From NCBI RefSeq assembly GCF_947495625.1, contig NZ_CANLZW010000043.1:1-38187 (forward strand): a stretch of DNA of 38,187 bases, in the 5' to 3' direction. The notes beneath the pieces are model-generated. The model saw only the letters and a list, made by a program, of their open reading frames with translations. It ran no database searches and was not told the origin of the DNA. The stretch is from an uncultured Cocleimonas sp. (GTDB lineage Bacteria; Pseudomonadota; Gammaproteobacteria; Thiotrichales; Thiotrichaceae). Shown piece after piece: positions 19,039 through 36,609 of this stretch (within the stretch, counting starts at the first letter, position 1; every line of letters starts with the position of its first letter). The position numbers and the translations under genes were made by a program.

Positions 19039-20193
19039 ATGAACAAAATTTTAATCAACGCTCGATATTGGTTTGCCCCATTATTGATCATAGTCTCAAT
19101 GATCGGCGTACTTATTGGAGGAATGTTCTCCTGGTTAGGTGTGCTACTTCTTGGCGTCGGCATTCTAATAGACACCCTAATGCATTATCAAACAGATGGC
19201 GCAGGATTCGATGAAAATGGTGAAACCAATGGTATAGCCTGGCTACAAAATGCAGTTATGTACACAATGCTTGGTGTATTTGTTTTACTTCAAGTTGCAT
19301 TAGCATGGCGTATCAATATGTATGTGTCTGGAGCACCACTAAGTGCTGGATATCACCATACATTATTTGGCATTTTACCTTATCAAGCAGGTATATCAGG
19401 TCTAGACCTTATCGGAGCAACGATCTCTTCGGGTATTTTTGCAGGTATCGGTATTATTTACGGACATGAACTCAGCCATACCAAAGGTTATACCTTCGCT
19501 ATATCTCGCTGGATGATGGCGTTAAGTGGTAAAGCTCATTTCAGTTATGCGCATGTTTACAATCACCATCTTGAGTTAGCACATGAAGATGACCCTGCAA
19601 CCTCACCTCGTGGTCGCAGCTTATTTCAACATTACCCACTCGCTGGAATCGGACAATCTAAATTCCTGTACCGCATGGAACAGCAACGTCTAGCTCGTTC
19701 TGGTAAATCTTTCTTCACTTGGGAAAATCGCTGGTTACGCGGTTATGCCATGAGCTTACCGACTATTTTCTTATTCTGGTTCGCTGGTGGATGGATAGGA
19801 ATTGGCTGTCTAGCCATAGTCTGGTTCATTTCTAACTTTGAATTAGAAGCACTTAACTATATGGAACACTACGGTCTGATTCGTGAAAAAGGTCAGCCTA
19901 TCGATTACCGCCATTCATGGGATAACTCTACTGCATTTACCAGCTGGTTCTTTATTGAAATTGGTAGACAGGCAGATCATCACGACCGCGGTGAAACACA
20001 CTTCTGGGAGCTTGATGAGGTTGGAGCACCCAATGTTGGATGGGGTTACTTTACTCTATTCGCACTCGCTTTAGCTCCGCCTCTTTATCATGCTTATTAC
20101 AAGAAGGAACTTGCAAAATGGGATGAGGAATTTGCCTCAGAAGGTGAGCGCAAAATAGCTGACCGCATCAATAAGCAAGTAGGTTATGCATAA
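19039..20193 (+). CDS. AlkB/XylM-type membrane di-iron monooxygenase, divergent
   Basis: 384 aa from the ATG at 19039 (GGAGGAA upstream; the in-frame TTG at 19024 precedes that site and is rejected). It is a fatty-acid-desaturase-fold membrane protein with several hydrophobic helices. The histidine boxes are HELSH (143-147), HVYNHH (172-177), NYMEHYG (His277) and GRQADHH (His314-315). In AlkB the second box is EHNxGHH and the last QRHSDHH. Here the glutamate of the second and the first histidine of the last are changed, and the EDDPATSPRG stretch after box 2 is kept. Such enzymes hydroxylate methyl groups using O2 and electrons from a reductase. A XylA-type reductase is encoded in the same operon. 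The substrate is unknown; mtoX and formaldehyde genes nearby suggest a methylated sulfur compound. Confidence 0.85.
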   Translation: MNKILINARYWFAPLLIIVSMIGVLIGGMFSWLGVLLLGVGILIDTLMHYQTDGAGFDENGETNGIAWLQNAVMYTMLGVFVLLQVALAWRINMYVSGAPLSAGYHHTLFGILPYQAGISGLDLIGATISSGIFAGIGIIYGHELSHTKGYTFAISRWMMALSGKAHFSYAHVYNHHLELAHEDDPATSPRGRSLFQHYPLAGIGQSKFLYRMEQQRLARSGKSFFTWENRWLRGYAMSLPTIFLFWFAGGWIGIGCLAIVWFISNFELEALNYMEHYGLIREKGQPIDYRHSWDNSTAFTSWFFIEIGRQADHHDRGETHFWELDEVGAPNVGWGYFTLFALALAPPLYHAYYKKELAKWDEEFASEGERKIADRINKQVGYA

Positions 20194-20242
20194 ACTTTAG
20201 TACTAATTAACAGCACAAAAAAGTGCTCATTAAAGCAGTATT

Positions 20243-20265
20243 CCCGCATCTAACAAAGATGCGGG
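20243..20265 (+). repeat. Intercistronic hairpin
   Basis: CCCGCATC/GATGCGGG perfect stem with a 7-nt loop between the monooxygenase and haemoglobin genes. There is no T-tract, so it more likely adjusts mRNA stability or relative expression than ends transcription. Confidence 0.6.
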
Positions 20266-20298
20266 GTTAACCCAAAACAACCAAGAGAGGAAATAACA

Positions 20299-20661
20299 AT
20301 GAGTGAAGCCAGTTTATATGAAAGATTAGGTGGCGCAGAAGGAATTGCAGCGATTACCGAGGATATCTGGGGTAACCATACTTCTAACCCGCTAGTTCAA
20401 AATCGATATGCTAAATCTGATCCAGAGCATGTAAAAAAACAAGTTCGCGATTTCTTTGGTGCAGGCACTGGAGGATCTGAAAATTACACCGGTGATGACA
20501 TGTTGACAGCCCATACAGGTATGAATATCAACGACCAGGAATTTAATGGTGTGGTTGATGATGTATTAAAAGCGCTTAAATCAAATGGTATTGGTGATAA
20601 AGAACACGATGAAGTACTTGCTATTTTGTACTCCATGAAGGGTGACATCGTAGGCGTTTAG
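20299..20661 (+). CDS. Truncated haemoglobin (group I-like)
   Basis: 120 aa; GAGAGGAA precedes the ATG. It opens with SLYERLGGAEGI, the standard start of truncated globins, and has the proximal-histidine motif LTAHTGMNINDQEF with His72. The length matches group I. Truncated globins bind O2 or NO at a heme. Encoded directly behind an O2-consuming monooxygenase, it could deliver oxygen or protect the di-iron site from NO; both are inference. I did not identify the usual distal B10 tyrosine with certainty. Confidence 0.9.
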   Translation: MSEASLYERLGGAEGIAAITEDIWGNHTSNPLVQNRYAKSDPEHVKKQVRDFFGAGTGGSENYTGDDMLTAHTGMNINDQEFNGVVDDVLKALKSNGIGDKEHDEVLAILYSMKGDIVGV

Positions 20662-20717
20662 TCTAGATGTTTAATTAAGTATTTGAGTAACTAACAAATT
20701 TGTAAAGGAGCTAGAAA

Positions 20718-20906
20718 ATGAAAGTAACTTGGGATGAATCCACATGTATTCACGCTGGTAAATGCGTTCAGGGTAGCCCTGATGTTTTTAAGGTTGAAGA
20801 CGGACAATTTAAAATAAACCTTGATGCCGGTGAAGAAAGCCAAATTCGAACCACCGTTGCATCATGCCCCTCAGGTGCTTTACAAATCCACGAAGACGAA
20901 AGTTAG
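20718..20906 (+). CDS. Small ferredoxin-like iron-sulfur protein (YjdI/Fer4_19 type)
   Basis: 62 aa; AAAGGAG precedes the ATG. The pattern is CIHAGKCVQGSPDVF (Cys10, Cys16) with ASCPSGAL (Cys50) near the end, typical of the short divergent mono-cluster proteins with three cysteines. It lies between the globin and the first GST-like gene of the monooxygenase operon. It is probably an electron carrier for the monooxygenase or a sensor of its redox state. The XylA-like reductase already has its own 2Fe-2S domain, so this one may have a different partner. Confidence 0.85.
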   Translation: MKVTWDESTCIHAGKCVQGSPDVFKVEDGQFKINLDAGEESQIRTTVASCPSGALQIHEDES

Positions 20907-20988
20907 GCTGTTAATTGGAGATCTTTTTTTATCACCAATATCAGAGAGAACACGGAAGCTTCGAAAAGAATCGATCATAGGAGGATAT

Positions 20989-21669
20989 ATGCTAGGTGAT
21001 CACTTACAAGACAAGATGAAACTATATGGAAATCCTGCCTGTCTAAATACAGCTAAATGTTTATTTACTGCAGCTGAAAAAGGCATTGATATAGATGCAC
21101 ATTTTATAGGAGAAAACGGTGAAGGAGATGCTGCTGCCGCTGCAGATATTTCTCCACATGGTTCATATCCTGTATTAAGAGACGTTGACTTTGTCGTATT
21201 CGGAACAAATGCCATGATGTCATTTTTAGATGACAAGGGCTTTGGTCCATCCTTAGTCCCTCGTAACGCAACTATTCGAACCATTATGTACAAAATGATT
21301 CATATCGCATCTGAATTAGCCCAACCTGATGTTCAAAACTTGCTAGCAGGTGAGGAAAATAAAGACAAGGTGGCTGCATGGTTTGATGTCCTGGAATCTC
21401 ATTTAAACAATAAAGATACGGCGTTACGCGGAGAATATATTTGTGGCGCATTTAGTTTAGCCGACAGCCATTGGGCGGCGCTGGCACAAGGCTGTGAAAT
21501 AGCCAATGCTGGAGATATTCTTTCCTCCAGACCTGCCGTTAACGCTTGGTGGGGACTAATCAAAGCACACCCGAGCACAAGCAAGGAAAATATCAAAGCA
21601 TACGATGTATTGCCAACGGCATCAGATATACAGAGCAACGCATTGAGAGATATTCATATTAATGCCTGA
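20989..21669 (+). CDS. GST-like protein 1
   Basis: 226 aa from the ATG at 20989, chosen for AGGAGG just before it; the longer frame upstream overlaps the ferredoxin gene. It has an N-terminal thioredoxin-like fold (NPACLNTAKCLFTAAEKG, then SPHGSYPVLR with the cis-proline) and an all-helical C-terminal domain with the GST motif AFSLADSHWAAL. The residues TAKCL place a cysteine at the start of helix 1, shared with the two other paralogues. GST-like proteins bind glutathione; whether this one conjugates a product, carries a hydroxymethyl-glutathione or is structural cannot be read. Confidence 0.82.
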   Translation: MLGDHLQDKMKLYGNPACLNTAKCLFTAAEKGIDIDAHFIGENGEGDAAAAADISPHGSYPVLRDVDFVVFGTNAMMSFLDDKGFGPSLVPRNATIRTIMYKMIHIASELAQPDVQNLLAGEENKDKVAAWFDVLESHLNNKDTALRGEYICGAFSLADSHWAALAQGCEIANAGDILSSRPAVNAWWGLIKAHPSTSKENIKAYDVLPTASDIQSNALRDIHINA

Positions 21670-21710
21670 TATGACTACAACATTCTCCCTTACAAAATAG
21701 GACGACATTG

Positions 21711-22799
21711 ATGTTTGGAATCTTTAAAAAACAGAAAAAACAGGACTGGAATGCGGAAATAGGAGTATCCGGTAAAACTTTTACAGTGACCGCTGGAGAT
21801 AATCTTCTTAAGTCTGCATTAGGTTCTGGAGTGCAATGGCCTCATGACTGTAGAGTGGGGAGTTGTGGTACGTGTAAATGCAAACTTAAATCAGGTCAAA
21901 TCAAAGAACTATCCGATTTTTCCTACGTGCTATCACAGGAAGACTTGCAAGCGGGAATGATTCTCGCTTGCCAGTCAGAATTACAAAGTGATGTTCAGAT
22001 TGAAGTAAACCTATTAGAAGATTCAGAACAAAGCCTGAACATTAGCTCTCATAAAGGGTTGATTCATAGTATGAATGCCTTGACTCACGATATTGTGGAG
22101 CTGGTTATTAAAGCCGATGAAGATATTCCACGGAATGCCCTGGCAGGACAATACGCTGAAATATCTGTAAGTAATATCGATCAACCTAGATCCTATTCAT
22201 TCGCTAAATCTCCAACCAAGGAGAATGATCGTGAAGTCAGCTTTTTTGTAAGACGAGTTCCAGATGGAGAGTTCACAGAGTGGCTTTTCGCTGATGATCG
22301 CGTTGGAGAATCTGTAGATATAACCGGACCCTATGGATCATTTTATTTACGCCCTGGTCAATCCCCCATTGTCTGTGTAGCAGGTGGAAGTGGAATGGCT
22401 CCCATCAAAGCATTATTAGAACATGCTCGTGATAATAACTGTAGACGAGAAGTACTGTATTTATTTGGCGCACGTAGCCAAAAAGACCTCTACTGTCTGG
22501 ATACAATGGAACAACTAAAAAGTAACTGGAAAGGAAAATTCGAATTCATTCCAGTTCTGTCAGAAGAGCCCGAAGATTCCGGCTGGGAAGGTGCACGTGG
22601 CTTCGTCACTGACCATTTAAAACAAACATATATCGACACAAACAAAGTGAATATGGCAAAAAGTCAAGGCTACCTATGTGGTCCTCCTCCCATGATTGAT
22701 GCTGCGATTGAAATTTTTACAGCAGCAGGTATGGATAAAGATGATGTTCACTTTGATAAATTTCTGGACGCTAGCAGTATGCCTGGGGGCAGAAACTAA
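21711..22799 (+). CDS. XylA-type ferredoxin-NAD(P)H reductase
   Basis: 362 aa from the ATG at 21711 (the TTG at 21708 is one codon earlier). The N-terminal plant-type 2Fe-2S domain has Cys47-x4-Cys52-x2-Cys55 and Cys87. The middle FAD-binding barrel carries QPRSYSFAKSP. The C-terminal NAD(P)H domain has VCVAGGSGMAPIKALLEHA and YLCGPPPMIDAA. This ferredoxin-FAD-NAD order is that of XylA, the electron donor of xylene monooxygenase XylM, and of CymAb. The pairing with the AlkB/XylM-like gene at the head of the operon makes it the electron supplier. It is complete with no missing cofactor motif. Confidence 0.92.
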   Translation: MFGIFKKQKKQDWNAEIGVSGKTFTVTAGDNLLKSALGSGVQWPHDCRVGSCGTCKCKLKSGQIKELSDFSYVLSQEDLQAGMILACQSELQSDVQIEVNLLEDSEQSLNISSHKGLIHSMNALTHDIVELVIKADEDIPRNALAGQYAEISVSNIDQPRSYSFAKSPTKENDREVSFFVRRVPDGEFTEWLFADDRVGESVDITGPYGSFYLRPGQSPIVCVAGGSGMAPIKALLEHARDNNCRREVLYLFGARSQKDLYCLDTMEQLKSNWKGKFEFIPVLSEEPEDSGWEGARGFVTDHLKQTYIDTNKVNMAKSQGYLCGPPPMIDAAIEIFTAAGMDKDDVHFDKFLDASSMPGGRN

Positions 22800-22877
22800 C
22801 ATCCTTGTAATAACGAATGTGACTCTAGATAGAAACTTACATTCATAGATAACTTATACACCTTAAGGAGATTAAAA

Positions 22878-23084
22878 ATGGCTTCATTAAAAGCAATCGC
22901 CGCAATGGCAATTTTTTCTGTCGTAGTATTTTTTGGTATGAACGCAGTTGGATTAACTGATAAACACTCAGACCCTTTATTTGCCTTATTGGGAGCTGTA
23001 GTACTACTTGTAGCTCTTGTCATTAACGTCACACTTTATTTAAAGATAGCAGGTGAAGCTCCATTTAAATGGTTTAATGATTAA
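22878..23084 (+). CDS. Small two-helix membrane protein
   Basis: 68 aa; AAGGAG precedes the ATG. It has two hydrophobic segments (about 5-25 and 36-56) with a short loop (GLTDKHSD) between them and an amphipathic end. I do not recognise a family. Sitting inside the monooxygenase operon just after the reductase, it may be a membrane subunit or assembly factor of the complex (inference). Confidence 0.75.
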   Translation: MASLKAIAAMAIFSVVVFFGMNAVGLTDKHSDPLFALLGAVVLLVALVINVTLYLKIAGEAPFKWFND

Positions 23085-23156
23085 TTCTATATAAATGAGT
23101 AGCATGAAAACTTGAGTATATGAAACTGAGTGATTAAAAAAGTAAGGATGTAAATT

Positions 23157-23855
23157 ATGGGTTTTTTTTCTAGAAAAAAGAAAGTAATCAAAAAACTACA
23201 GTTAAAAGGTTTCCCTGGGCATATTGATACGTGTAAATGTCTTTACCTTGCAGCTGAAAAGAAACTAGATATCGAATTAGCTTTATTGGATCTTGTTGAA
23301 CAAGATCAGAATAAAGATGCGTACCTAAGTATCTCACCATTTGGAAAAATACCCAGTCTAATTGATGATTCACTGGTGGTTTCAGGTGTAGCTGCGGTTC
23401 TACCTTATATTGATATCAAGGGAAGTGGTCAATCACTAACGCCAAAAAAAGCAGCCAATCTGGGGCAACAAAATTACTGGATTGAAGTAGGAACAGAAAA
23501 GCTATTACCCCATATAAACACCCTGATTGAAGAGCGTTTTATCAATCCGATGCATGACACGTCTTATGTTGAAGATCAGGAAAAAATCACAATGGCCAAG
23601 GATAAAATTAATCACGCTTTTGAAATTGCTGATAAACACCTAAGCGATAAAAACCATTTTGCGAATGACTACACCTTTGCAGAAGTTCATTGGGTACCTT
23701 ATCTACACTTTTGTTCCATTACCAATCAACAGGATTTGATAGATAAGCACCCTTCTCTCAAACAATGGTTTGAGAAAATGCAGAGCAAACCTTCCTACCA
23801 GGTTTTACCTTCTGATGAAGAGATCAAAGTGAAAGACTTCAAAAATGTTGCCTAA
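23157..23855 (+). CDS. GST-like protein 2
   Basis: 232 aa; start region has AAGTAAGGATG, giving a usable site. A basic N-terminus (FFSRKKKVIKK) is followed by the thioredoxin-like motif KGFPGHIDTCKCLYLAAEKK, then SPFGKIPSL and the helical domain with YTFAEVHWVPYLHF. It has the DTCKCL cysteine seen in its paralogues. The GFPGHxDT motif is shared with GST-like protein 3 and differs from standard GST active sites with S/Y/C in a different position. It is part of a three-copy set unique to this operon here; the exact role is unknown. Confidence 0.82.
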   Translation: MGFFSRKKKVIKKLQLKGFPGHIDTCKCLYLAAEKKLDIELALLDLVEQDQNKDAYLSISPFGKIPSLIDDSLVVSGVAAVLPYIDIKGSGQSLTPKKAANLGQQNYWIEVGTEKLLPHINTLIEERFINPMHDTSYVEDQEKITMAKDKINHAFEIADKHLSDKNHFANDYTFAEVHWVPYLHFCSITNQQDLIDKHPSLKQWFEKMQSKPSYQVLPSDEEIKVKDFKNVA

Positions 23856-23948: not shown

Positions 23949-24728
23949 ATGAGTGAGTTATTTGCATTTGGTAGAGCAGCTGAAAATTCTGATGTCAGTT
24001 ATGGCTCTGCTGGAGATATGAAAAAGACCCAATACGTCTTGCAGTTGCTCGGTTTTCCGGGGCATGCTGACACTATTAAATGTTTAATCACCGCTGTAGA
24101 AATGGGTTTAGAAACTGATTCTGCAGTACTGGATATTCTTGATTCAAACGTCAAAAACGATGAATACAATCAGCTATCACCGTTTGATATGTTACCTATC
24201 CTAAAAGAAGCTGATTACTATGTTTCCGGTGCTTTAGGAATCATGAGTTATATAGAAGCCCGGGGTTTAGGAACAAGATTACCTCCGAATAATGTTGGAC
24301 TTTTAGCTAAACAAAATTACTGGTCGGACATCGCTTGTTCAGATGTTGGACCACATGTTGATGCCATCGTTCAACAAGTAGTACTGGCCCCATTGAGTAA
24401 TATCGGCCCTGACGAAAATGTTATTCAACAGGCTCTTGCTGCATTATCAGCACCATTAGTAGCTTTAGATAATGAACTAGCAAATAACGAATATATCATT
24501 GGGAAATATTCGTTTGCCGATATTCATTGGTCAGCCTATATCCATCTTTTATATGAAGCCAGCCAAGCTGATTTCATCGATAAACATAGCAATATTAAAC
24601 GATGGTTTGACTTGATACGAACACGTAAAAGTTTTTCCGGGCAAAACATTATCGCCTATGACTTATTACCTAAATTAGGTGACATCCAAAACAAACAGTT
24701 AAATTCTGTCGTTATAGACGATTACTGA
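23949..24728 (+). CDS. GST-like protein 3
   Basis: 259 aa; GAAAAGAGAG ends about 8 nt before the ATG. A 30-residue N-terminal extension (SELFAFGRAAENSDV) precedes the thioredoxin-like motif LGFPGHADTIKCLITAVEMG, then SPFDMLPILK and SFADIHWSAYIHL. The conserved cysteine (IKCL) and HxDT are kept. It is paralogous to GST-like proteins 1 and 2 over the whole length. The ends of copies 1 and 3 (ENIKAYDVLP / QNIIAYDLLP) match especially well. This suggests tandem duplication and divergence, perhaps forming a heteromer. Confidence 0.82.
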   Translation: MSELFAFGRAAENSDVSYGSAGDMKKTQYVLQLLGFPGHADTIKCLITAVEMGLETDSAVLDILDSNVKNDEYNQLSPFDMLPILKEADYYVSGALGIMSYIEARGLGTRLPPNNVGLLAKQNYWSDIACSDVGPHVDAIVQQVVLAPLSNIGPDENVIQQALAALSAPLVALDNELANNEYIIGKYSFADIHWSAYIHLLYEASQADFIDKHSNIKRWFDLIRTRKSFSGQNIIAYDLLPKLGDIQNKQLNSVVIDDY

Positions 24729-24743: not shown

Positions 24744-25163
24744 ATGATCTGGCCTTTAAAAAACACAACCGCTCAACTGGATCATTCAGCACTCGCTTTA
24801 GATCCTTTTATTTCCTTGGCACTAAAGGGCCAGGAGAAAGCTATAGAATCAAAAAACAAAGCCAAGACCGGTCAGTTAATACAATGTTATATCTATGGAG
24901 CCATTCGGTACATAGCTTCTTACGATGATTTAAATACCGAGAACTCTAAAGTATTACTGCATAAGATGCTATCAGCCCATTTTGACGAAAATGACGATGA
25001 AGTGAATAAAAGTATAAAGCGTTTATCAGAACCGCAAAAAGATAAAACAGAACAGTTATTTATGATTGAGGGTGCAAGTGCTCTAAGACGTTATCTAGTC
25101 AATGGCGACAGAACCGTAAGGACCAACTTAATTGAATTGTTAGATCTACATAAAACACATTAG
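24744..25163 (+). CDS. Hypothetical helical protein
   Basis: 139 aa; unrecognised. It starts 15 nt after GST-like protein 3 with a weak ribosome site (AAGAG). The sequence is charged and mostly helical. A central segment (TGQLIQCYIYGAIRYIASYD) has a lone cysteine, and the C-terminal part has GASALRRYL. There is no signal peptide or membrane segment. It might be an assembly or regulatory factor of the monooxygenase operon; this is context only. Confidence 0.65.
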   Translation: MIWPLKNTTAQLDHSALALDPFISLALKGQEKAIESKNKAKTGQLIQCYIYGAIRYIASYDDLNTENSKVLLHKMLSAHFDENDDEVNKSIKRLSEPQKDKTEQLFMIEGASALRRYLVNGDRTVRTNLIELLDLHKTH

Positions 25164-25217: not shown

Positions 25218-25334
25218 ATGTCGAATAAAGAAGGTGGAAACAACTCAATGGTATTTATGACCGCAATGATTAGCGGTACTGTAATAATCGTTGTTGCACT
25301 ATGGTTATCGGGTGCATTGGGAATGATTTTTTAA
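25218..25334 (+). CDS. 38-residue single-helix membrane protein
   Basis: A short gene with a strong ribosome site GAGGAGG 8 nt before its ATG. The product starts MSNKEGGNNS and then has one hydrophobic helix of about 23 residues (VFMTAMISGTVIIVVALWLS, GALGMIF). It is the last gene of the monooxygenase operon, 54 nt after the previous one. Tiny single-helix proteins often act as stabilisers of membrane complexes, which is a reasonable guess here but not shown. Confidence 0.6.
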   Translation: MSNKEGGNNSMVFMTAMISGTVIIVVALWLSGALGMIF

Positions 25335-25587: not shown

Positions 25588-28326
25588 TTAGTTAACTGCC
25601 GATAATTTCACCGCACAATACTTCACTTCTGCAATTTTAGCTGCTGGATCTAATGCTGCATTTGTCAGTACATTGGCTGCCGCTTCAAAATAACAAAATG
25701 GCATAAATACTGTTCCTACCGGAGAATTATCGGTAATCTTGATTTTCGCTTGAAGCTCTCCACGTCTGGTTTCGAGCTTGAGCATATCGCCGTCATCTAA
25801 ACCTAATTTCAAGGCATCACGCATATTCACCGAGATCCATGGTTCTGGTTCCAAAGTATCCAATACCGTTGCCCGACGAGTCATACTGCCCGTATGCCAA
25901 TGTTCTAATTGTCGACCTGTGATAAGTACAAAGGGGTATTCTTCATCAGGTTGCTCATCTGGAGGAACGATATCCGCAGGAACTAGTTTCACTCTTCCGC
26001 TGGCTGTTGGGAAATCATTCTTGAATATGACTGGCTCGCCAGCATCTCCTTCGTTCTCACATGGATAAGTCACACTTTCGTTTTCTAAACGCTCCCAGGT
26101 AATGCCTGCAATAGAATCCATTGCCTGTCGCATTTCATTGAAAATATCTTTAGGTCCCTGGTAGTTCCAATCCAGACCTAAGCGTTTCGCAACTTCCTGA
26201 ATAATCCACCAGTCCTGTTTTGCATCACCAGGAGGAGTAATAGCCTGACGTCCCATTTGTACAGCACGATCAGAGTTACTATAAGTCCCTGTTTTTTCTG
26301 GGTTTGCCGCAGCGGGAAGCACAACGTCCGCATAGAATGCCGTTTCTGTAAGGAACAAATCTTGCACCACAAAATGTTCTAATTTTGCCATTGCCTCACG
26401 CGCATGTAATACATCTGGATCAGACATGGCTGGGTTCTCACCTTCTACATACATACCTTTGATGGCTCCATCGTATGCAGCATTCATCATCTCGACAGTG
26501 GTTATACCTGGTTTGTCATCGAGCGATTCCACATTCCAGAGTTTTCTAAATCGATCTTGATTCTTTTCGAGTGTCACTGGTTGATAGTCAGGGAATACCA
26601 TCGGAATCAAACCAACATCTGATGCACCCTGCACATTATTCTGTCCACGTAAGGGATGCAAGCCAGTGCCATCACGACCAATTTGCCCTGTAATCATACA
26701 CAGTGAAATCAAACATCGTGCATTGTCGGTGCCATGTACATGTTGTGAGATGCCCATACCCCATAAAATCATGGCATTGTTTGCGGTTGCATACATACGT
26801 GCAACATCACGAATTTGTTCTGCACTGACACCGCAAATAGACGACATGTCTTCAGGCGAATAATCCTGTAGATGTTCTTTTAGTTTTAAGAAATCTTCCG
26901 TACGGGTTTCTATAAATTCTTTATCGGTCAGCCCTTCATTGACAATCACATGCATCATCGCATTGAGTAATGCTACATCTGATGATGGTTTGAATTGCAC
27001 ATGCTGAGCCGCGTGTCGCTTCATATCTGAACCACGAGGATCCATTAAGATCAACTTCGTACCATTCTTAATGGCATTCTTCATCCACGTCGCACCCACC
27101 GGATGATTAACGGTCGGATTGGCGCCGATAATAATAATCACATCAGATTTAGTCACATCAGCCATTGGGTTTGAAACCGCACCCGAACCAAAACCTTCCA
27201 GCATTGCAGTCACTGAAGATGCATGACAAAGGCGCGTACAATGATCGACGTTGTTGGTTTGGAAGCCGGTACGAATGAGCTTTTGGAAGATATATGCTTC
27301 TTCGTTACTACCTTTAGCAGAACCTAATCCTGCGAGTGCATATTTCCCGTCTTTCTCGATGATTTTCTTTAAACCATCTGCGGCAAAATCGAGTGCTTCA
27401 TCCCACGTTGCTTCGCGGAAAATATCTAAAGGCTTGCTTGGATCAAAATCCAGTAAGTCTGTTTTTGGCACATCATCACGACGAATTAAAGGAACAGTAA
27501 GGCGTTCCGGACTGTGAATATAATCAAAGCCATAACGACCTTTTACACACAAACGCCCTTCATTAGCGGGGCCATTTCGTCCTTCGACATGTAGGATTTT
27601 ATTGTCTTTAACATTGTAAGTCAGCAAACAGCCAACACCACAATAGGGACAAACCGAATCGACTTTCTTATCTGGCACAATCATACCGACGCCATTAGCA
27701 GGCATTAACGCACCTGTCGGACAGGCTTGCACACATTCGCCACAGCCGACACAGGTACTCTCACCCATCGCATCGTCTACATCGAAGACAATTTTGGTTT
27801 CGCCACCGCGTTTTGCCAAGCCAATAACATCATTGACCTGGACATCACGACACGCACGCAAGCAACGCGTACAGTGAATACAGGCATCAAGGTTTACACC
27901 AATAGCCGGGTGTGAAAAATCATATTCAACTTTGGCTCGTGATTCAAAACGAGAAGGTTGAACGGAAAGTTTTTGCGACCACTGTTGAAGTTCGTTATTG
28001 AGTGTGTACTGTTCTTCTGGCATATCAGCATTGAGTAATTCCAATACCATTTTCTGTGCATTTACAGCTCGATCATTATCTGATGATACTTTCATATCCG
28101 CGCTAGGATAACGACAACAGGATGGAGCTAATACTCGCTCACCTTCAATCTCAACCATGCAGGATCGACAGTTACCCACTTCTTCCAGACCATCTTTGTA
28201 ACAGAGATGGGGTATCTCAACACCATGGCGTTGCGCCGCTTTCAATATGGTTTCACCTGGGTTTGCGCTGACTGTTTTACCGTTTAACTGGAATTCGGTG
28301 ATTGTATGGCTAGAAGTAGAACTCAT
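25588..28326 (-). CDS. fdsA: NAD-dependent formate dehydrogenase, catalytic alpha subunit
   Basis: 912 aa. Order of domains: plant-type 2Fe-2S (CRSCMVEIEGE, residues ~47-65), NuoG-like Fe-S segment, two 4Fe-4S clusters (CIHCTRCLRACRD and CVGCGECVQACPTG), the CPYCGVGC iron-sulfur cluster, then the molybdopterin oxidoreductase domain. The metal ligand is an ordinary cysteine, Cys367 in VDHCTRLCHASS, with no selenocysteine. It oxidises formate to CO2 with Mo or W cofactor and passes electrons to the beta subunit. ATGA overlap with the beta gene. The two-subunit layout matches FDH1 of Methylorubrum, which is tungsten-containing; metal here unknown. It is the last step of the one-carbon route. Confidence 0.95.
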   Translation of the reverse strand: MSSTSSHTITEFQLNGKTVSANPGETILKAAQRHGVEIPHLCYKDGLEEVGNCRSCMVEIEGERVLAPSCCRYPSADMKVSSDNDRAVNAQKMVLELLNADMPEEQYTLNNELQQWSQKLSVQPSRFESRAKVEYDFSHPAIGVNLDACIHCTRCLRACRDVQVNDVIGLAKRGGETKIVFDVDDAMGESTCVGCGECVQACPTGALMPANGVGMIVPDKKVDSVCPYCGVGCLLTYNVKDNKILHVEGRNGPANEGRLCVKGRYGFDYIHSPERLTVPLIRRDDVPKTDLLDFDPSKPLDIFREATWDEALDFAADGLKKIIEKDGKYALAGLGSAKGSNEEAYIFQKLIRTGFQTNNVDHCTRLCHASSVTAMLEGFGSGAVSNPMADVTKSDVIIIIGANPTVNHPVGATWMKNAIKNGTKLILMDPRGSDMKRHAAQHVQFKPSSDVALLNAMMHVIVNEGLTDKEFIETRTEDFLKLKEHLQDYSPEDMSSICGVSAEQIRDVARMYATANNAMILWGMGISQHVHGTDNARCLISLCMITGQIGRDGTGLHPLRGQNNVQGASDVGLIPMVFPDYQPVTLEKNQDRFRKLWNVESLDDKPGITTVEMMNAAYDGAIKGMYVEGENPAMSDPDVLHAREAMAKLEHFVVQDLFLTETAFYADVVLPAAANPEKTGTYSNSDRAVQMGRQAITPPGDAKQDWWIIQEVAKRLGLDWNYQGPKDIFNEMRQAMDSIAGITWERLENESVTYPCENEGDAGEPVIFKNDFPTASGRVKLVPADIVPPDEQPDEEYPFVLITGRQLEHWHTGSMTRRATVLDTLEPEPWISVNMRDALKLGLDDGDMLKLETRRGELQAKIKITDNSPVGTVFMPFCYFEAAANVLTNAALDPAAKIAEVKYCAVKLSAVN

Positions 28327-30272: not shown

Positions 30273-31115
30273 TTAACTTCTTAACTGTTTTTCATGAAAA
30301 GCTAGATGCTCACCAATGAATGTAGAGATAAAATGATAGCTATGATCATAACCATCTTGCATTCTTAATGTGATAGGGAAATCAGCAGCTTCGCAGGCAT
30401 CGAGCAAATTTTGAGGATGCAGTTGCTCAGCAAGAAACTCATCATCTAATCCATGATCAATTAACACTGGGAGTTTTTCTGCTCCATGTTTGACTAAACT
30501 CGTTGCATCGTAGTCTTCCCATTTATCTTTATCATCACCTAGATAAGCGCTGAAACAACCTTCACCCCAACCGCAATTAACAGGATTACAAATGGGTGCA
30601 AACGCTGAAGCAGATTTATACATTCCGGCATTTTTAAAGGCACAAATCAACGCACCATGACCACCCATTGAGTGCCCTGTGACCGAACGCACACCTGGAA
30701 TAATCGGGAAGTTTTCTTCAGCTAATTCAACCAGTTCTTTGGTAACATAATCATACATTTGGTAGTTTTTTGACCATGGCTCTTGTGTCGCATTGACATA
30801 AAAACCAGCACCTTTTCCAAGATCATAACGATCTTCTTCATCAGGTACATCATCACCGCGCGGGCTAGTATCCGGAATGATTAATGCAATTCCTAATTCT
30901 GATGCGTAACGCTGTGCGCCAGCTTTAGTACGAAAGTTATCGTCAGTGCAGGTAAGGCCAGATAACCAGTACACAGCAGGTACTTTTTCTGTTTCTGCTA
31001 AAGGTGGCAGATAAACCGAGAAAGTCATCTCACAATTACAGCTTGATGATTCATGCGTGTAACGTTTAAGCCATCCGCCAAACTCTTTTACGCTTTCAGT
31101 TTCTTGAATAGACAT
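30273..31115 (-). CDS. fghA: S-formylglutathione hydrolase
   Basis: 280 aa from the ATG at 31115, chosen for AAGGAA ahead of it and because MSIQETESVKEFGG aligns with the usual family start; a start at 31169 adds unsupported residues. It is an alpha/beta hydrolase of the esterase D family, cytoplasmic. The nucleophile serine sits in GHSMGGHGAL, the histidine in GYDHSYHF, and the oxyanion segment is WLSGLTCTDDNF. It hydrolyses S-formylglutathione to formate and glutathione, after AdhC, whose gene is directly upstream. The length and motifs are fully normal. Confidence 0.95.
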   Translation of the reverse strand: MSIQETESVKEFGGWLKRYTHESSSCNCEMTFSVYLPPLAETEKVPAVYWLSGLTCTDDNFRTKAGAQRYASELGIALIIPDTSPRGDDVPDEEDRYDLGKGAGFYVNATQEPWSKNYQMYDYVTKELVELAEENFPIIPGVRSVTGHSMGGHGALICAFKNAGMYKSASAFAPICNPVNCGWGEGCFSAYLGDDKDKWEDYDATSLVKHGAEKLPVLIDHGLDDEFLAEQLHPQNLLDACEAADFPITLRMQDGYDHSYHFISTFIGEHLAFHEKQLRS

Positions 31116-31182
31116 AGTTATTCTATTTCCTTCTTTTTTGTATTTGATACTCAAATAGGAGGATGCCAATTAATAATAATGA

Positions 31183-31306: not shown

Positions 31307-32419
31307 TTAAAACTCAATAACAGAACGAATACTCTCGCCACTATGCATTAAATCAAATGCTCTATTGATGTCTTCTAATGGCATCTTGTGAGTAACCAAA
31401 CTATCCAGCTCGATCTCACCTGCCATATAACGATCAACATAACCCGGAAGTTCTGTTCTACCTTTAACGCCACCAAATGCCGTTCCCATCCAGGTACGAC
31501 CAACAACCAAGTTGAATGGACGAGTTTGAATAACCTGACCAGCGCCAGCTACACCGATTACCACTGACTTACCCCAGCCCATGTGTGTACATTCAAGCGC
31601 ATCACGCATTACATGAACATTACCGATACATTCGAATGAGTAATCTGGACCACCATTAAACGTGTCCTGCATGTACTCAACAAAACCACCTTCAGGAAGA
31701 TCTTTAGGATTAACAAAATCAGTACAACCTAACTGCTTCGCGAATTCGAATTTATCAGGGTTAATATCGATACCGATAATGCGCGTCGCGCCAGCCATTA
31801 CTGCACCTTGAATACATGAAAGACCGATGCCACCTAAACCAAATACCGCTACAGTAGAACCTGGCTCAACTTTCGCTGTATTTAGTACAGCACCGATTCC
31901 TGTTGTCACACCACAACCTAACAAACACGCTTTATCAAGCGGTGCTGCTTTGTTGATTTTTGCTAATGCGATTTCTGGAACAACGGTGTACTCAGAGAAT
32001 GTTGAACATCCCATATAATGGAAAATGTCTTTGCCACCTTGTGAGAAACGACGTGTGCCATCCGGCATATAACCTGTCCAGATTGTGCCAGCAATTGTCT
32101 GACATAAATTCGACTTGGTTGAATTACAGTATTCACAATCACCACACTCAGCGATGTAAAGTGGAATAACGTGATCACCTACCTCCAGGTCCTTAACCCC
32201 GGGGCCTAATTCAACAACTTCACAACCACCTTCATGCCCTAAAATACAAGGAAATGAGCCTTCTGGATCATCACCTGAAAGCGTAAATGCGTCTGTATGA
32301 CATACGCCAGATGCTATTACTTTAAGAAGAACCTCTCCCTCTTTTGGCCCCATTACTTCTACTTCCTCTATGACTAAAGGCTTTTTTGGTTCCCACGCTA
32401 CTGCTGCTTTACATTTCAT
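31307..32419 (-). CDS. adhC: S-(hydroxymethyl)glutathione dehydrogenase / class III alcohol dehydrogenase
   Basis: 370 aa, a normal length. AAGGAGAATC precedes the ATG. It has catalytic zinc ligands in [13 protein letters not shown] and LGHEGGCEV, structural zinc cysteines in [15 protein letters not shown], and the NAD-binding [13 protein letters not shown]. Motifs are those of the class III enzyme, which oxidises S-hydroxymethylglutathione to S-formylglutathione with NAD+. It is followed by fghA and formate dehydrogenase and lies after the methanethiol oxidase operon, so it acts directly on the formaldehyde that MtoX makes. I see no regulator box immediately upstream; it may be read through from the mtoX operon or use a promoter I did not define. 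Confidence 0.96.
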
Positions 32420-32509
32420 CTGAATGATTCTCCTTATTTAAAATGTTGTGTAGTTTTGTTGTAATGTTTTGCTTAGTATTACTAGTTATATAAGCCTTCT
32501 ATTCGAAGA

Positions 32510-33109
32510 CTATAGTTTATTAAGATGATTTATTTCGTTTTTTACCACCTGCAGAATATGCTCAGTTGGTAGTCCAAAAGGTATGATGTTTAACATTTTG
32601 CCATCGGCCCCAAGCACATATAAATTAGCAGAATGATCTACCAAATAATACTCACTGTCTTTTTTCTTTGAATGAATTTTGGTTTGTACCCGATAAGCAT
32701 CTGCAACCGCACTAATCTCACTTTCACTACCGGTAAGCCCAATCAAATTAGGGCTGAAAAAAGGCACATAATTTTTCAATTTATCGGGGGTATCTCGTTC
32801 TGGATCTACGGAAATAAATAATGCACTTACCTTTTCTGCATCATCTCCAAGTGATCTTAACACCTTGGCTAATGAAGATAACTCAGTTGGGCAGATATCA
32901 GGACAAAAAGTATAGCCAAAGAAAATGAGGACCAACTTGCCACGTAATTGCTGCAGCTCAAATTTCTTGCCATTATGATCAGTTAGTGTGAAATCACCAC
33001 CCACATTAGATTTTTCACCAGCATAAACTATTGCAGAATTTGATTGCAGCGTTAACGCCAAAAGCAATACAAGCCCTACTATCTTTAATTGTTTTAGTAT
33101 TTTACTCAC
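32510..33109 (-). CDS. Sco1/SenC-type copper chaperone
   Basis: 199 aa with a GTG start that shares one base with the upstream TAG. The hydrophobic N-terminus (VGLVLLLALTL) is a signal peptide or anchor. The thioredoxin-like Sco fold has the copper-binding Cys69 and Cys73 in FCPDICPTEL and a histidine in VDHSANLYV. It delivers copper or keeps thiols reduced in the periplasm. MtoX is a copper enzyme and its known operons encode a Sco1/SenC-domain protein, so it is the likely metallochaperone of MtoX (established context). Confidence 0.92.
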   Translation of the reverse strand: MSKILKQLKIVGLVLLLALTLQSNSAIVYAGEKSNVGGDFTLTDHNGKKFELQQLRGKLVLIFFGYTFCPDICPTELSSLAKVLRSLGDDAEKVSALFISVDPERDTPDKLKNYVPFFSPNLIGLTGSESEISAVADAYRVQTKIHSKKKDSEYYLVDHSANLYVLGADGKMLNIIPFGLPTEHILQVVKNEINHLNKL

Positions 33110-35091
33110 TAATATTCACTTCTTCCGTGCGCCCAATTTGGGTCGCTATTAGTAAGGTCTCCAATGGGTGCATCAAACGCATCCGAAACCAGCGTATCCA
33201 CATTACTACCGGTTAACGCTTGTAAAAAAGTGACTAGATCGCTCTGTTCTTGATCGGATAGATTTAATGGTGTGATCAAAGGATCTAAAAGGTCGTTTGC
33301 TACTCCGCCTTTATTATAAAAACTGACAACATCGTTCAATGTCTGCAATGACCCGTTGTGCATATAAGGCGCAGTTAAATTAACATTGCGTAGACTTGGC
33401 GTTTTATACTTCCAGCGGTCGTCTGGGTTTTGTGTTATTTCGTATAAACCGGTATCCGCGGCTTTCTTTTCACCCACTGAATCTATAATCGCTGTATCGA
33501 CATCAACAAAAACGCCTGGTGCTAGAACAACCCTTTCTTTAGCCGGCTTTATTCCCATTGCTTCGTTATAACCAATTCCGGTGTTATGCATTTTTTGATC
33601 AGTAAACAACGCATGTTTGTCACTGATTGTATGACAGGTACTGCACCTGCCTTTACCGGAAAAAATCTGAAATCCGCGTTGTGCTTTTTTGCTTAGTGCA
33701 TCTTCTTGTTTTCCAAAGTACCAACGATCAAACGAAGAGTCAGCAGATACCAATGTCCTCTGATAGTCAGCTAATGCCCTACCCAGATTTCTCATATTTA
33801 CGCCGCCACCATCGAATGCTTTTTCAAACAGACCTTTATAGTCCGGCATTTTTTTAATTTTATTAATCACATAGCCAACAGATGGATTAGACATTTCATT
33901 ATGAGCTAAAAGTGGTCCCCATATTTGTTGCTCCAACGTTTCCTCGCGCCCATCATGAAACAAGCTGGTGTTATAGGCTACGTTATAAAGGGTCGGAGAG
34001 TTACGCCTGTGACTTCTACCTTCAATACCTATCGCCATCGCCAGTTCATTATTGGCAAAGCCTTGCTCTGGTATATGACAAATTGCGCAAGAAAAAGTAT
34101 CGTTAAAAGACAACCTGCGATCAAAAAACAACCTTCGACCAAGCTCGATTTTTTCAGCCGTTAACGGATTGGTTTCTGGCTCAGGAACTGCGGGTAACCC
34201 TAGTGGTGGATTTTTTGCTAACGCTAATAAATCAGCCTTTGCACCACGGCGAGCAGTTATAGATTTACTTCTGGTTGTGTAACTACCTGTTTCATAGCCA
34301 TCTTTATCATCACCTGGAACAGATAAAATAGGAGCTAGGTGATCTTGGTCTGGCTCATCATTACTCGAAATTTTATAAGCATCATCTTCGAGAATGAGTG
34401 TTTTTATATCAGCCAATATGACTTCGGGATGTAAAAAACCTAAGCTATAAATATTACGAACTTTTAATTTCGGATCGACTAGAAACACTCTTAAAATATG
34501 TGATATGTCACCCGTTTCTTCGCCGTTGACACTCATCTCACGCTGAATATCCTGATTGTAAGATTGCAGGATCGGGTCGAGTGCAGCTAGTGATGGCGTG
34601 GTTAAAAAACGCCATTCTCCCTTGTCACCTGCAAATTTAAAATTAGCACCATATAGACGCATTACTTCAGGAGAATCATGTTCGGGATCAAAACTAAGAC
34701 TGGCTAAACGTAATTTATCCGCAAGCTCAGGATCTTTTTTCATTAGGGTTTTCAGTTTATAGAAGACAAATGAAGCTAAAGGGCATCCATTGACATCTTT
34801 ACAGTTGCTGTAGATAAAGCTCAACAGCGTATATTTACCCTTGTAAATATTATGTAACGTATCTTCACGCCCCTGTTCATCAAGAATTTTACCGTCTGCT
34901 GCGTCACCCAATGGCGGAAGTTTATAACTTCCTGCGGCGGCCATCTTATAGCCTAAAGAACCGAAACCCGGAGCCAATGGAATAGTTTCAATTGTTTTTG
35001 ATGTCGAATTGTTCTCAAGCGATGTAGCACTAGTCTCAAACATAGCAAGGAAACAACCAAACAGAATTACCCCCACACTAAATACTTTCAT
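33109..35091 (-). CDS. Sco-domain / MauG-type di-heme peroxidase fusion
   Basis: 660 aa. Signal peptide, then a Sco/thioredoxin-like domain (about 40-240) whose cysteine pair is Cys97 and Cys103 (NCKDVNGCPL), spaced x5 and not the usual x3, with DISHILRVFLVD as the later histidine segment. The C-terminal domain (about 295-640) is a MauG/cytochrome c peroxidase type with two heme-c sites: CAICH (335-339) and CSTCH (483-487), plus LFHDGREETLEQQ and LRNVNLTAPYMHNGSL. MauG proteins do oxidative maturation or peroxide chemistry in the periplasm. In known mtoX operons the Sco and MauG proteins are often encoded apart; here they are joined, and a second stand-alone Sco follows. Confidence 0.9.
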   Translation of the reverse strand: MKVFSVGVILFGCFLAMFETSATSLENNSTSKTIETIPLAPGFGSLGYKMAAAGSYKLPPLGDAADGKILDEQGREDTLHNIYKGKYTLLSFIYSNCKDVNGCPLASFVFYKLKTLMKKDPELADKLRLASLSFDPEHDSPEVMRLYGANFKFAGDKGEWRFLTTPSLAALDPILQSYNQDIQREMSVNGEETGDISHILRVFLVDPKLKVRNIYSLGFLHPEVILADIKTLILEDDAYKISSNDEPDQDHLAPILSVPGDDKDGYETGSYTTRSKSITARRGAKADLLALAKNPPLGLPAVPEPETNPLTAEKIELGRRLFFDRRLSFNDTFSCAICHIPEQGFANNELAMAIGIEGRSHRRNSPTLYNVAYNTSLFHDGREETLEQQIWGPLLAHNEMSNPSVGYVINKIKKMPDYKGLFEKAFDGGGVNMRNLGRALADYQRTLVSADSSFDRWYFGKQEDALSKKAQRGFQIFSGKGRCSTCHTISDKHALFTDQKMHNTGIGYNEAMGIKPAKERVVLAPGVFVDVDTAIIDSVGEKKAADTGLYEITQNPDDRWKYKTPSLRNVNLTAPYMHNGSLQTLNDVVSFYNKGGVANDLLDPLITPLNLSDQEQSDLVTFLQALTGSNVDTLVSDAFDAPIGDLTNSDPNWAHGRSEY

Positions 35092-35208
35092 TGTCTAACA
35101 CCTTGATTATTACTATTACTGATAGCTACTAAAGCGAATCAGTTTTGCCACTAGGACAAAACCGATTCAAAATACCTCAAAGATTATGAGGCACTAGGAG
35201 ACTTGTTA

Positions 35209-36609
35209 TTACTCTACGATACTAGCGACTTTTTTCACCTCGCTCATTTCTGGCTTCTTTTTGCTATATAAAGAATAGGCTCCGAAACGCATTTGGTGAG
35301 CTCTACCTAATTTTAAGGCATTGAAATCGATACTGAATTTTTCATCCAGCTCTTTTCCATTCCAAACATAGCTTTTAAAGTACTGTGAATTATCATCGCC
35401 TTTCTTATCCCAGTTCGCTAACAATGAAGAGGTGTAATAAACTCGCTTTCCATCCCAGCTAGAAGACGCCATATTGACTTGTTTATCGATTTGCTTCTCA
35501 TAAGTTTGCTTAGGCGCATTGATATCAGAAAGATCAAAGTAACGTGTCTTACCGTCCATAAAGGTATTCACCCAAAGACCTGAATCATCTGATGTTAGTG
35601 AGATATCTACTGGTAATGGTATTTTTGATGCATCACCAATATCTGCCACATCCTTCGCTTGCCATTCACCTTTGTCATCTTCATAGATTAACCAGATTTT
35701 TGATGTTAAGGCTGTGGTAGTTAAACACCAGTTGTGATTTGGCTGCCATGCACAACGAACTTCTAGAGGTGCACCAGGCACATCTAGTATTTTCTTTGGC
35801 TTTCTTGTATGTAAATCCCAAATAACAACGGTATTTCCGAAACGCTTCATGGCTTCTGGATCTTTTACCATTTTACCGAGGTCCATCATGTAGTTAGACC
35901 AACCAGTAAATGATGATGTCACCATCACATTGCGTCTAGGTAAAGCGCGTAAGTCATAACCATAACCATCAGCATACTTTCCTGATTTTTTCGCACCATT
36001 TAGGTTTTCATCCGTTGGCATCCAGTGAGTCGCTACAAATTTACCTTCATTGGTGTATTCCACCATTGCCGTTCTTCCGCCGTGATCGGCATTATTTGAT
36101 AAACCAGTTACCATCATTCGGCCAGGTAACGCATAAGTTGTATGTGGGCCAACAACGCCACCACTAGCTGATACAAAATCGGTGATTACTTTGTTTAAGG
36201 TTGGTTTAGCAGGATCAGTATGAACATCAAATACAAAAATCTTGTTTGTATCTAAACCGCCCGCCCACAGGTATTTACGATCATCTGTTAAACCAGAATG
36301 ATGCGCCTCATTACGACCACCAACCGAAAGGGTTTCGATTACTTTTCCATATTTAGGCGAATTAGGATTTACATCAACGGTAACTAACTTGTCTTGGCCG
36401 TCACCTAGCCCTTCAACACCTAGAGTCCATATATAAACAAAATCTTCCTGGCCTACGATTTTAGCCATGTATGGCGACATACAAGTCTCGTCAGCATGCG
36501 TTGTAGAAACCAACCCAGTAACTGAGCATAAAAGAGTAGAAACAGCTACAGCAATACCCACCTTTCTTTTTACTAAAGATAACAATTTGTTACTTTTTTT
36601 ATTGTTCAT
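35209..36609 (-). CDS. mtoX: Methanethiol oxidase (SBP56 family)
   Basis: 466 aa; GGAGGA sits about 9 nt ahead of the ATG. An N-terminal signal peptide (VGIAVAVSTLLCSVTGLVS, cleavage near THADE) sends it to the periplasm. It has the selenium-binding-protein fold with ETCMSPYMAK, GGRNEAHHSGL, PHTTYALPGRMMVTGLSN and WQPNHNWCLTTTAL. Bacterial members are copper-dependent oxidases that turn methanethiol into formaldehyde, H2S and H2O2 (established for Hyphomicrobium). The following Sco-MauG and Sco genes match the known mtoX operon. Regulator box F (36884-36899) drives it. Confidence 0.95.
   Translation of the reverse strand: MNNKKSNKLLSLVKRKVGIAVAVSTLLCSVTGLVSTTHADETCMSPYMAKIVGQEDFVYIWTLGVEGLGDGQDKLVTVDVNPNSPKYGKVIETLSVGGRNEAHHSGLTDDRKYLWAGGLDTNKIFVFDVHTDPAKPTLNKVITDFVSASGGVVGPHTTYALPGRMMVTGLSNNADHGGRTAMVEYTNEGKFVATHWMPTDENLNGAKKSGKYADGYGYDLRALPRRNVMVTSSFTGWSNYMMDLGKMVKDPEAMKRFGNTVVIWDLHTRKPKKILDVPGAPLEVRCAWQPNHNWCLTTTALTSKIWLIYEDDKGEWQAKDVADIGDASKIPLPVDISLTSDDSGLWVNTFMDGKTRYFDLSDINAPKQTYEKQIDKQVNMASSSWDGKRVYYTSSLLANWDKKGDDNSQYFKSYVWNGKELDEKFSIDFNALKLGRAHQMRFGAYSLYSKKKPEMSEVKKVASIVE

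Follow-up and report, generated by a model that had tools for sequence, protein, structure and literature searches.

Dimethyl sulfide (DMS) is a central biogenic sulfur gas and is relevant to climate. Marine microbes oxidise most of the DMS made in the sea, 80% according to a June 2026 paper that counts DmoAB, DdhABC and Tmm among the DMS enzymes and, in a figure legend, gives dimethyl sulfoxide (DMSO) as the DmoAB product (PMC13352529); a June 2026 review assigns the step from DMS to methanethiol to DmoA and the step from DMS to DMSO to DdhA, DsoB and Tmm (PMC13360808). Yet six Methylophaga genomes have no DmoA homologs (PMC6548844), and metagenomes of DMS-fed soil and sediment in which Thiobacillus and Methylophilaceae occurred did not yield dmoA (PMC4611497). 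As late as 2022, the gene for the presumed DMS methyltransferase was described as unidentified (PMC9563715). The methanethiol oxidase MtoX is described as periplasmic and copper-dependent (PMC5739008), and the two irons of the alkane monooxygenase AlkB as bound by nine histidines that are called invariant and indispensable (PMC10110569). Searching the literature at the level of titles and abstracts, without preprints and most subscription journals, we found no AlkB-type DMS enzyme. Here we analyse a 38,187-nucleotide stretch of DNA (the window), which is one entire contig (NZ_CANLZW010000043.1; G000:C43 in our numbering) of the 4.6 Mb genome of an uncultured Cocleimonas sp. The window carries mtoX and an operon with a gene for a membrane di-iron protein that has the AlkB/XylM fold and belongs to a new clade, the proposed DMS hydroxylase (positions 19039 to 20193, + strand; hereafter the clade gene or clade alkB).

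We consider it likely that this operon encodes the first step of the methanethiol-oxidase pathway, in which the di-iron oxygenase would hydroxylate DMS to yield methanethiol and formaldehyde. We also lean, though only slightly, towards the wider view that the protein represents a new class of DMS-opening enzymes, an eight-His-plus-Gln membrane di-iron oxygenase that may catalyse the missing first step of DMS use in Methylophaga, in Thiobacillus and in many sulfur oxidisers, marine and symbiotic, that are uncultured, where it would have been masked by the name 'fatty acid desaturase'. An earlier note on this DNA had proposed a DMS monooxygenase feeding MtoX, and this proposal has gained support from the co-occurrence of the two genes, from the proximity of alkB and mtoX in several lineages and from a probable Methylophaga thiooxydans ortholog reported as induced on DMS (PMC6548844); the substrate and the hemithioacetal step of that proposal are what we infer.

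A separate clade of AlkB-fold proteins with an altered ligand motif

The window protein scored 89.4 bits on the FA_desaturase domain (PF00487, cut-off 29.7), and its sequence matched two PDB entries, 8sbb and 8f6t, both of alkane 1-monooxygenase. An AlphaFold2 model (mean pLDDT 79.7, pTM 0.85) displayed the AlkB fold, with 8f6t as the top Foldseek match (E 2.5e-12, TMq 0.78) and 8sbb also found (E 1.7e-10), at 22-23% identity. To place the protein among its relatives, one genome for each of 84,980 species was scanned with a search keyed on two peptides, and the best 80 of 113 relatives, from 67 genomes as counted by contig prefix, were kept. BLAST scores against the window protein ran from 708 bits (88% identity) down to 412 (54%) and were followed by a gap to 192 (31%). 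Carriers among these best 80 of 113 include Methylophaga sulfidovorans DSM 11578 and other Piscirickettsiaceae/Methylophagaceae, Thiobacillus, Candidatus Porisulfidus, Candidatus Thiodiazotropha, Thiohalocapsa, Thiogranum, records labelled Thiothrix, and many uncultured gammaproteobacteria. Several of these names are those of sulfur oxidisers.

A tree was built from 116 rows, which remained of 132 after removal of rows shorter than 330 amino acids and 16 duplicates. The 77 clade rows formed one group (SH-aLRT 100) on a stem of 1.39, apart from the XylM of pWW0 and from rubredoxin-linked AlkB, and the three XylM rows stood in a separate branch, also with an SH-aLRT of 100, to which the clade does not belong; the quick method used gave a long-branch warning, and the nearest neighbours and sister relation of the clade are uncertain. 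The clade retains the HExxH, HxxxHH and EHYG motifs. The first histidine of the HxxHH motif is replaced by Gln311 in 77/77 clade members and is a histidine in all 39 other rows, XylM and AlkB included, which leaves the clade with eight of the nine AlkB histidines, as mapped by motif rather than from coordinates. A second mark of the clade is Asp295, present in 77/77 members, with Asn at this place in 32 of the 39 others. Front-end desaturases are known with an (H/Q)xxHH motif, so the change to Gln need not abolish iron binding. Judged by sequence, the clade lacks a defining feature of AlkB and is a separate long-stemmed lineage, neither AlkB nor XylM, with an altered metal-ligand motif. The earlier note had spoken of an AlkB/XylM-like di-iron enzyme with a XylA-type reductase: the fold and the domains of the reductase agree with this description, whereas the clade identity does not. 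The protein joins a known fold to a new clade, an altered metal motif and a reaction newly proposed for the fold.

Co-occurrence of the clade gene with mtoX

The mtoX gene of the window (35209 to 36609, - strand) scored 781.8 bits on NF052453 (cut-off 650) and is adjoined by genes for an SCO1 copper chaperone and an SCO1-MauG fusion (MtoX maturation; 32510 to 35091, - strand; PF02630, PF03150). The N-terminus of its product resembles, by eye, a Sec signal sequence. We examined the distribution of both genes in 369 genomes drawn evenly from the class to which the window belongs, the window's own genome included, and set clade membership at 265 bits or more (the next best score being 227). The clade gene occurred in 13 genomes of 8 families (G000, G037, G124, G129, G205, G226, G264, G269, G331, G339, G371, G434, and G447; G339 counted by truncated copies only), and mtoX scored over the curated cut-off in 32/369. 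All 13 clade genomes carried mtoX, 11 over the cut-off and 2 (G205 and G434) as fragments at contig ends, compared with 21 of the 356 others over the cut-off. On the over-cut-off counts, Fisher's test, which treats genomes as independent, gave p 2e-11; the value was 3e-15 when the two contig-end pieces were counted and 5e-15 when one such piece (G325) was also added to the others.

As a control, we looked at genomes with only non-clade AlkB relatives. These had mtoX over the cut-off in 6/31 cases, below the clade genomes (p 9e-5) and above the 15/325 genomes without any relative (p 0.006), and part of the signal is therefore common to the wider family. Within Methylophaga, the clade gene and mtoX were each found in 2/24 genomes, and these were the identical two (G099 and G474). 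A lack of co-occurrence with mtoX across genomes, which the earlier note had named as a finding that would refute its proposal, was thus not observed. Among the 67 genomes behind the 80 loci, mtoX scored over the cut-off in 49, was partial in 10 (with only 32 residues in G093) and was represented by a remote relative only in 1 (G100).

Gene order around clade alkB

Homologs of the genes near the window oxygenase were counted within at most 10 kb on each side of the 80 clade loci, dropping BLAST hits under 45 bits; any hit was counted, some weak paralogs included, and many loci are shortened by contig ends. Homologs were counted for the XylA-type reductase (26 loci), a small membrane protein (22), the small ferredoxin (21), glutathione S-transferase-like protein 1 (GST1, 21), a FadL-type channel (14), an acyl-CoA-dehydrogenase-fold flavoprotein (acad, 13), a globin (13), the formate dehydrogenase subunits fdsA and fdsBG (12 each), and mtoX (8). 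In six marine loci (L092, L099, L100, L104, L112, and L122), fdsA-fdsBG-sco is divergent from alkB-fdx-gst1-red-fadL-mtoX-mauG, with alkB and mtoX 5.7-5.8 kb apart. Two Thiobacillus loci (L118 and L120) have the order mtoX-mauG-fdx-acad-HK-RR-alkB-glb-red (HK, histidine kinase; RR, response regulator), with an alkB-mtoX distance of 9.3-9.8 kb. In G205 the order is alkB-tm1-glb-mtoX, where mtoX begins some 1.2 kb beyond alkB and is truncated by the contig end; the distance is 7.7 kb in G474 and about 22 kb in G099.

Other copies are solo. In L048, L051, L055, L062, L068 and others, a divergent MerR gene with B12-binding domains lies about 1.1-1.2 kb away and fabA lies beyond it. Two genomes with a solo copy also carry a copy beside mtoX (L081 and L092; L115 and L122). 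A sister pair within the clade, L088 (a Rhodobiaceae record) and L114 (a Porticoccaceae record), has the globin and the reductase adjoining, and the respective genomes have no mtoX (G092) or a remote relative only (G100); this pair may have another substrate or may reflect a binning error.

Expression of a probable ortholog in Methylophaga thiooxydans

Kroeber and Schaefer (2019) compared M. thiooxydans on DMS and on methanol. According to the available text of their paper, strong upregulation on DMS was seen for MDMS009_226, a 'fatty acid desaturase', for the two mtoX genes and for MDMS009_61, an NAD(P)H flavin reductase; the authors read MDMS009_226 as membrane repair and called the first DMS enzyme unidentified (PMC6548844). 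Of the two Methylophaga genomes with mtoX, G474 carries this gene in two copies. On its contig C25, mtoX is followed by genes for SCO1-MauG, a thioredoxin-like protein, a beta-lactamase-rhodanese, a pyridine nucleotide-disulfide oxidoreductase, SulP, APS kinase, and MGMT, a gene content that would fit M. thiooxydans and its mto-cluster 1 as described in that paper (PMC6548844). Of the two FA_desaturase genes of G474, the clade gene is located on this same contig and the other on C9. The mto-cluster tags 211, 140, 284, 274, and 261 fall in the same range as 226 and 61 (PMC6548844), and the MDMS009 tag ranges may be read as contigs. MDMS009_226 is probably the clade gene of M. thiooxydans. The other Methylophaga with both the clade gene and mtoX is M. 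sulfidovorans, which grows on DMS. M. aminisulfidivorans is reported to grow on DMS without mtoX (PMC6548844) and must therefore use some other route.

Genes of the operon and of the window

The list of open reading frames (ORFs) covers those of at least 100 amino acids, and three short genes of the operon (20718 to 20906, 22878 to 23084, and 25218 to 25334) thus lie outside it. All operon genes are on the + strand. The oxygenase gene is followed by genes for a truncated (bacterial-like) haemoglobin (20299 to 20661; PF01152, 44.3 bits), the small ferredoxin (20718 to 20906; Fer4_19, PF06902, 56.7 bits), and GST1 (20989 to 21669; GST_N_2), for which the ATG at 20989 is a more likely start than the TTG at 20821 that opens the ORF. 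The XylA-type 2Fe-2S/FAD/NAD(P)H reductase (21711 to 22799) has Fer2, FAD_binding_6 and NAD_binding_1 domains, and its top NCBIfam model was BenC, at 241.4 bits and under the cut-off of 430. Next come the small membrane protein that recurs near clade alkB (22878 to 23084; without a Pfam match), glutathione S-transferase-like proteins 2 (23157 to 23855; homologs in 14/80 loci) and 3 (23949 to 24728; 17/80), and, both without a Pfam match, a 139-amino-acid protein of unassigned family (24744 to 25163; 4/80) and a 38-amino-acid small membrane protein (25218 to 25334; 0/80).

On the - strand between the operon and mtoX lie the genes that take formaldehyde to CO2 through glutathione, whose presence had been noted from the sequence and is borne out here. 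These are frmA, encoding S-(hydroxymethyl)glutathione dehydrogenase (31307 to 32419; TIGR02818, 617.7 bits, cut-off 543.95), fghA, encoding S-formylglutathione hydrolase (30273 to 31169; TIGR02821, 396.8 bits, cut-off 281.7), and an fds-like formate dehydrogenase pair (25588 to 30023), consisting of a molybdopterin subunit and a fused NuoE/NuoF subunit and named from domains rather than from a curated model. Among the window ORFs scanned, frmA is the sole alcohol-dehydrogenase-type gene, no ring-cleavage gene was seen, and no luciferase-family (DmoA-type) match was obtained, in keeping with the earlier statement that the window has no DmoA-like gene. The one PF00296 protein of the genome belongs to TIGR03571 (395.8 bits, cut-off 303.9), a family whose name is silent on DMS.

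Upstream of the operon, acad (14941 to 16152, + strand) travels with genes for a PAS sensor histidine kinase (16154 to 18184, + strand; domain match) and a FixJ/NarL-type response regulator (18174 to 18788, + strand; Response_reg and GerE domains; FixJ model 232.7 bits, under the cut-off of 255). The acad product scored on the DszC and SfnB models far under their cut-offs. We considered it as a DMS flavin monooxygenase and do not favour this, because its gene accompanies that of the sensor kinase and no gene for a flavin reductase was observed next to it. The FadL/TodX outer-membrane channel (PF03349) is encoded at 13207 to 14490 on the - strand. A gene at 11861 to 13084 encodes a 407-amino-acid protein without a Pfam match, with homologs in 3/80 clade loci, including that of M. 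sulfidovorans, and also near clade alkB in G474. The left part of the window holds two pairs of PAS kinase and FixJ-type regulator, the regulator at 9515 being named by eye. A divergent pair around one regulator box (6018 to 7582) encodes a DUF1326 protein (- strand; PF07040) and a PpoB2 copper chaperone (+ strand; PF09948), which are candidate extra copper-delivery factors for MtoX. Profile matches at 477 to 5912 (+ strand) correspond to gfa-like, gshA, VWA and MoxR/CbbQ genes, for glutathione supply and, in the case of VWA-MoxR/CbbQ, a possible metallo-enzyme activator pair; a VWA-MoxR pair is divergent from clade alkB in both Methylophaga genomes (G099 and G474). The gene set of the window is coherent, with glutathione supply, C1 oxidation, and copper delivery for a copper enzyme.

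Regulator box and other repeats

The box TACGTAGNANTACGT has 10 hits in the window at up to 2 mismatches, compared with 0.56 expected, and 0/100 shuffles had as many. The hits lie at six places, at about 300, 6714, 11134, 14760, 18860 and 36891. One box is located upstream of the alkB operon (18853 to 18867, - strand; exact TACGTAGAAATACGT) and another upstream of mtoX, 275 bp from its start, and also upstream of the divergent tetR (36884 to 36898, + strand; exact TACGTAGTACTACGT). Pattern matches, with no strand assigned, are further found upstream of gfa (293 to 308), between the divergent DUF1326 and PpoB2 genes (6707 to 6722) and upstream of the acad-HK-RR operon (14753 to 14768). The looser form TACGTANNANTACGT occurs exactly 6 times at 5 places, all on the window contig and none elsewhere in the 4.6 Mb; at up to 1 mismatch it has no genome-wide excess (21 hits, compared with 37 for the reversed control pattern).

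In other genomes, the box was found upstream of clade alkB (within 450 bp, less at contig ends) as an exact match in 4/80 loci (L058, L098, L101, and L102) and at up to 1 mismatch in 5/80, where 20 mononucleotide shuffles gave 0 or 1. It was found upstream of mtoX at up to 1 mismatch in 0/32 loci of other genomes, some of them shortened by contig ends. Common control of alkB and mtoX by the box is therefore seen in the window genome only; the regulator box shared with mtoX that the earlier note had described stands there and does not extend to the other mtoX loci. As a general mark of the pathway the box was rejected on these counts.

Two more repeats were observed. A second palindrome, GAATGAATNTTCATT, has 10 hits at up to 2 mismatches (1.2 expected). 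Because of its four places, before gfa (393 to 408), the first kinase pair (7882 to 7897), the acad-kinase operon (14696 to 14711) and the TetR gene at 37233 (37147 to 37162), it is probably a TetR operator. The sequence CACCCCCCTACTTT, at up to 1 mismatch, has 7 copies (0.00 expected), all on the + strand and at or near gene ends (1211, 10967, 11197, 25562, 28332, 31183, and 37952).

Proposed pathway and alternatives

In the route that we infer, electrons from NAD(P)H would pass through the XylA-type reductase, the small ferredoxin or both to the membrane di-iron oxygenase, which would hydroxylate one methyl group of DMS (or of a close methyl thioether) to CH3-S-CH2OH. A methyl thioether hydroxylated at the alpha carbon is a hemithioacetal, which decomposes to a thiol and formaldehyde. 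The product CH3-S-CH2OH would be converted to methanethiol and formaldehyde either spontaneously or with a glutathione S-transferase passing the C1 unit to glutathione. Methanethiol would then be taken by the periplasmic, copper-dependent MtoX, and formaldehyde would proceed through S-hydroxymethylglutathione (FrmA), S-formylglutathione (FghA) and formate dehydrogenase to CO2. Because MtoX is described as periplasmic and has an apparent Sec signal, the membrane enzyme would release methanethiol to the outer side and formaldehyde to the inner side, towards glutathione. The pair of PAS kinase and FixJ-type regulator, the latter a candidate binder of the box, may turn on the gene set through the shared box, and the VWA-MoxR pair might, at a guess, activate the metal enzyme.

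Several points weigh against DMS hydroxylation. The altered ligand could change the chemistry. Within the clade, none of 12 partner gene types is present in 35/80 loci, a MerR/B12-binding regulator adjoins alkB in 17/80 (16 of them solo) and fabA is near it in 14/80 (13 solo); no mtoX match was obtained in 7/67 clade genomes (G061, G087, G089, G092, G478, G481, and G485), six of which are of 0.8-1.4 Mb, with completeness not given. The solo copies, the several paralogs per genome and the genomes without mtoX leave room for other substrates. Conversely, mtoX is often found without the clade gene, as in 6 of the 8 genomes with mtoX over the cut-off among 57 relatives, three of these six (G003, G004, and G011) being from the window's own genus, in which G008 is a further case with a partial mtoX; the link is one-way, and mtoX presence was rejected as proof of the clade gene. 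The glutathione route lies outside the conserved set, with frmA homologs in 1/80 loci and fghA homologs in 0/80, and is a C1 route particular to the window's genome. The link between MDMS009_226 and the clade comes from position and from the number of family members rather than from a sequence comparison. Soluble assays often lose membrane di-iron enzymes, which softens a further negative result: when M. thiooxydans was grown on DMS, Boden et al. (2010; cited in PMC6548844) did not detect DMS monooxygenase activity, and they suggested a methyltransferase. By the available text of the same paper, induction on DMS was non-specific, with 280 transcripts highly up and 1,340 more up at least twofold, tetrahydrofolate (H4F) enzymes were up on DMS, and none of six Methylophaga genomes was found to carry fghA (PMC6548844).

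The link to mtoX would fit any source of methanethiol, and the enzyme could act on another small methylated sulfur compound that gives methanethiol (dimethyl disulfide (DMDS), methylthio acids or other thioethers), or on more than one compound, with DMS not the main substrate. The presence of multiple copies in one genome (G037, G129, and G269) suggests several substrates, and Thiobacillus thioparus strains Tk-m and E6 are reported to use DMS, DMDS and CS2 (PMC5248467). We regard this as unlikely, given that DMDS would by general chemistry need reduction rather than oxygenation and that the sole expression data found are from growth on DMS (PMC6548844). It is very unlikely that the protein is instead a lipid desaturase or hydroxylase protecting membranes on DMS, as the authors of PMC6548844 suggested for MDMS009_226: the FA_desaturase domain, the fabA gene near 14/80 copies and the H2O2 stress that they report during growth on DMS fit such a role, but fold and sequence are nearest to alkane and xylene hydroxylases, the operon has a reductase, a ferredoxin and glutathione S-transferases as well as a nearby FadL gene, and the clade gene follows the distribution of mtoX in different families.

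A short-chain alkane or methyl-aromatic hydroxylase lying beside mtoX by chance would explain the XylA-type reductase and the FadL/TodX channel, and non-clade AlkB relatives are also somewhat oftener found with mtoX (6/31 compared with 15/325). This is highly improbable in view of the absence of ring-cleavage genes and of any alcohol-dehydrogenase-type gene other than frmA among the window ORFs scanned, and of an mtoX link that is stronger for the clade (11/13) than for the other relatives. We give equally little credence to an oxygenase that handles and detoxifies methanethiol or sulfide beside MtoX while a methyltransferase opens DMS. Many carriers are named as sulfur oxidisers and a methyltransferase is what Boden et al. 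(2010) proposed, yet methanethiol is already covered by MtoX and, by the available text of PMC6548844, the genes induced on DMS included no candidate for a DMS methyltransferase. DMS hydroxylation by the di-iron oxygenase is the reading that we prefer, and with it the clade would be the probable missing first step of DMS breakdown in many sulfur-oxidising bacteria. As a defined gene clade, it could serve as a metagenomic marker, offer a target for gene knockout in a bacterium that can be cultured, and add a new chemistry to the AlkB fold.

Comparison with known systems

The mto-cluster 1 of M. thiooxydans (PMC6548844) has its counterpart in G474, where mtoX and SCO1-MauG lie 7.7 kb from the clade alkB operon. 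Its published description, in the available text, differs from ours in that DMS is opened by a methyltransferase, the desaturase serves membrane repair, and there is no FrmA-FghA route. AlkB (8f6t, 8sbb) has the same membrane fold and the same HExxH, HxxxHH and EHYG motifs as the clade, but identity is 22-23% and AlkB has His where the clade has Gln, at the first position of HxxHH (77/77). The electron donor of AlkB is rubredoxin; the operon has a Fer4_19 ferredoxin and a 2Fe-2S/FAD reductase and no rubredoxin, the rest of the genome not having been searched for one. XylM/XylA of pWW0 (L196) likewise couples a membrane di-iron protein to a 2Fe-2S/FAD reductase, and the operon has such a XylA-type partner. 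XylM differs in its identity of about 27-29%, its separate clade and its surroundings, which are those of a ring pathway as opposed to the C1 and sulfur genes found here; the clade, for its part, has Glu and not Gln in the EHYG motif, and Gln and not His at 311. DmoAB of Hyphomicrobium is a flavin-dependent, luciferase-type system, and no window ORF scanned gave a match of the DmoA type. In spite of this difference in enzyme type, it carries out the same reaction as the one proposed here, the conversion of DMS to methanethiol and formaldehyde, and likewise feeds MtoX.

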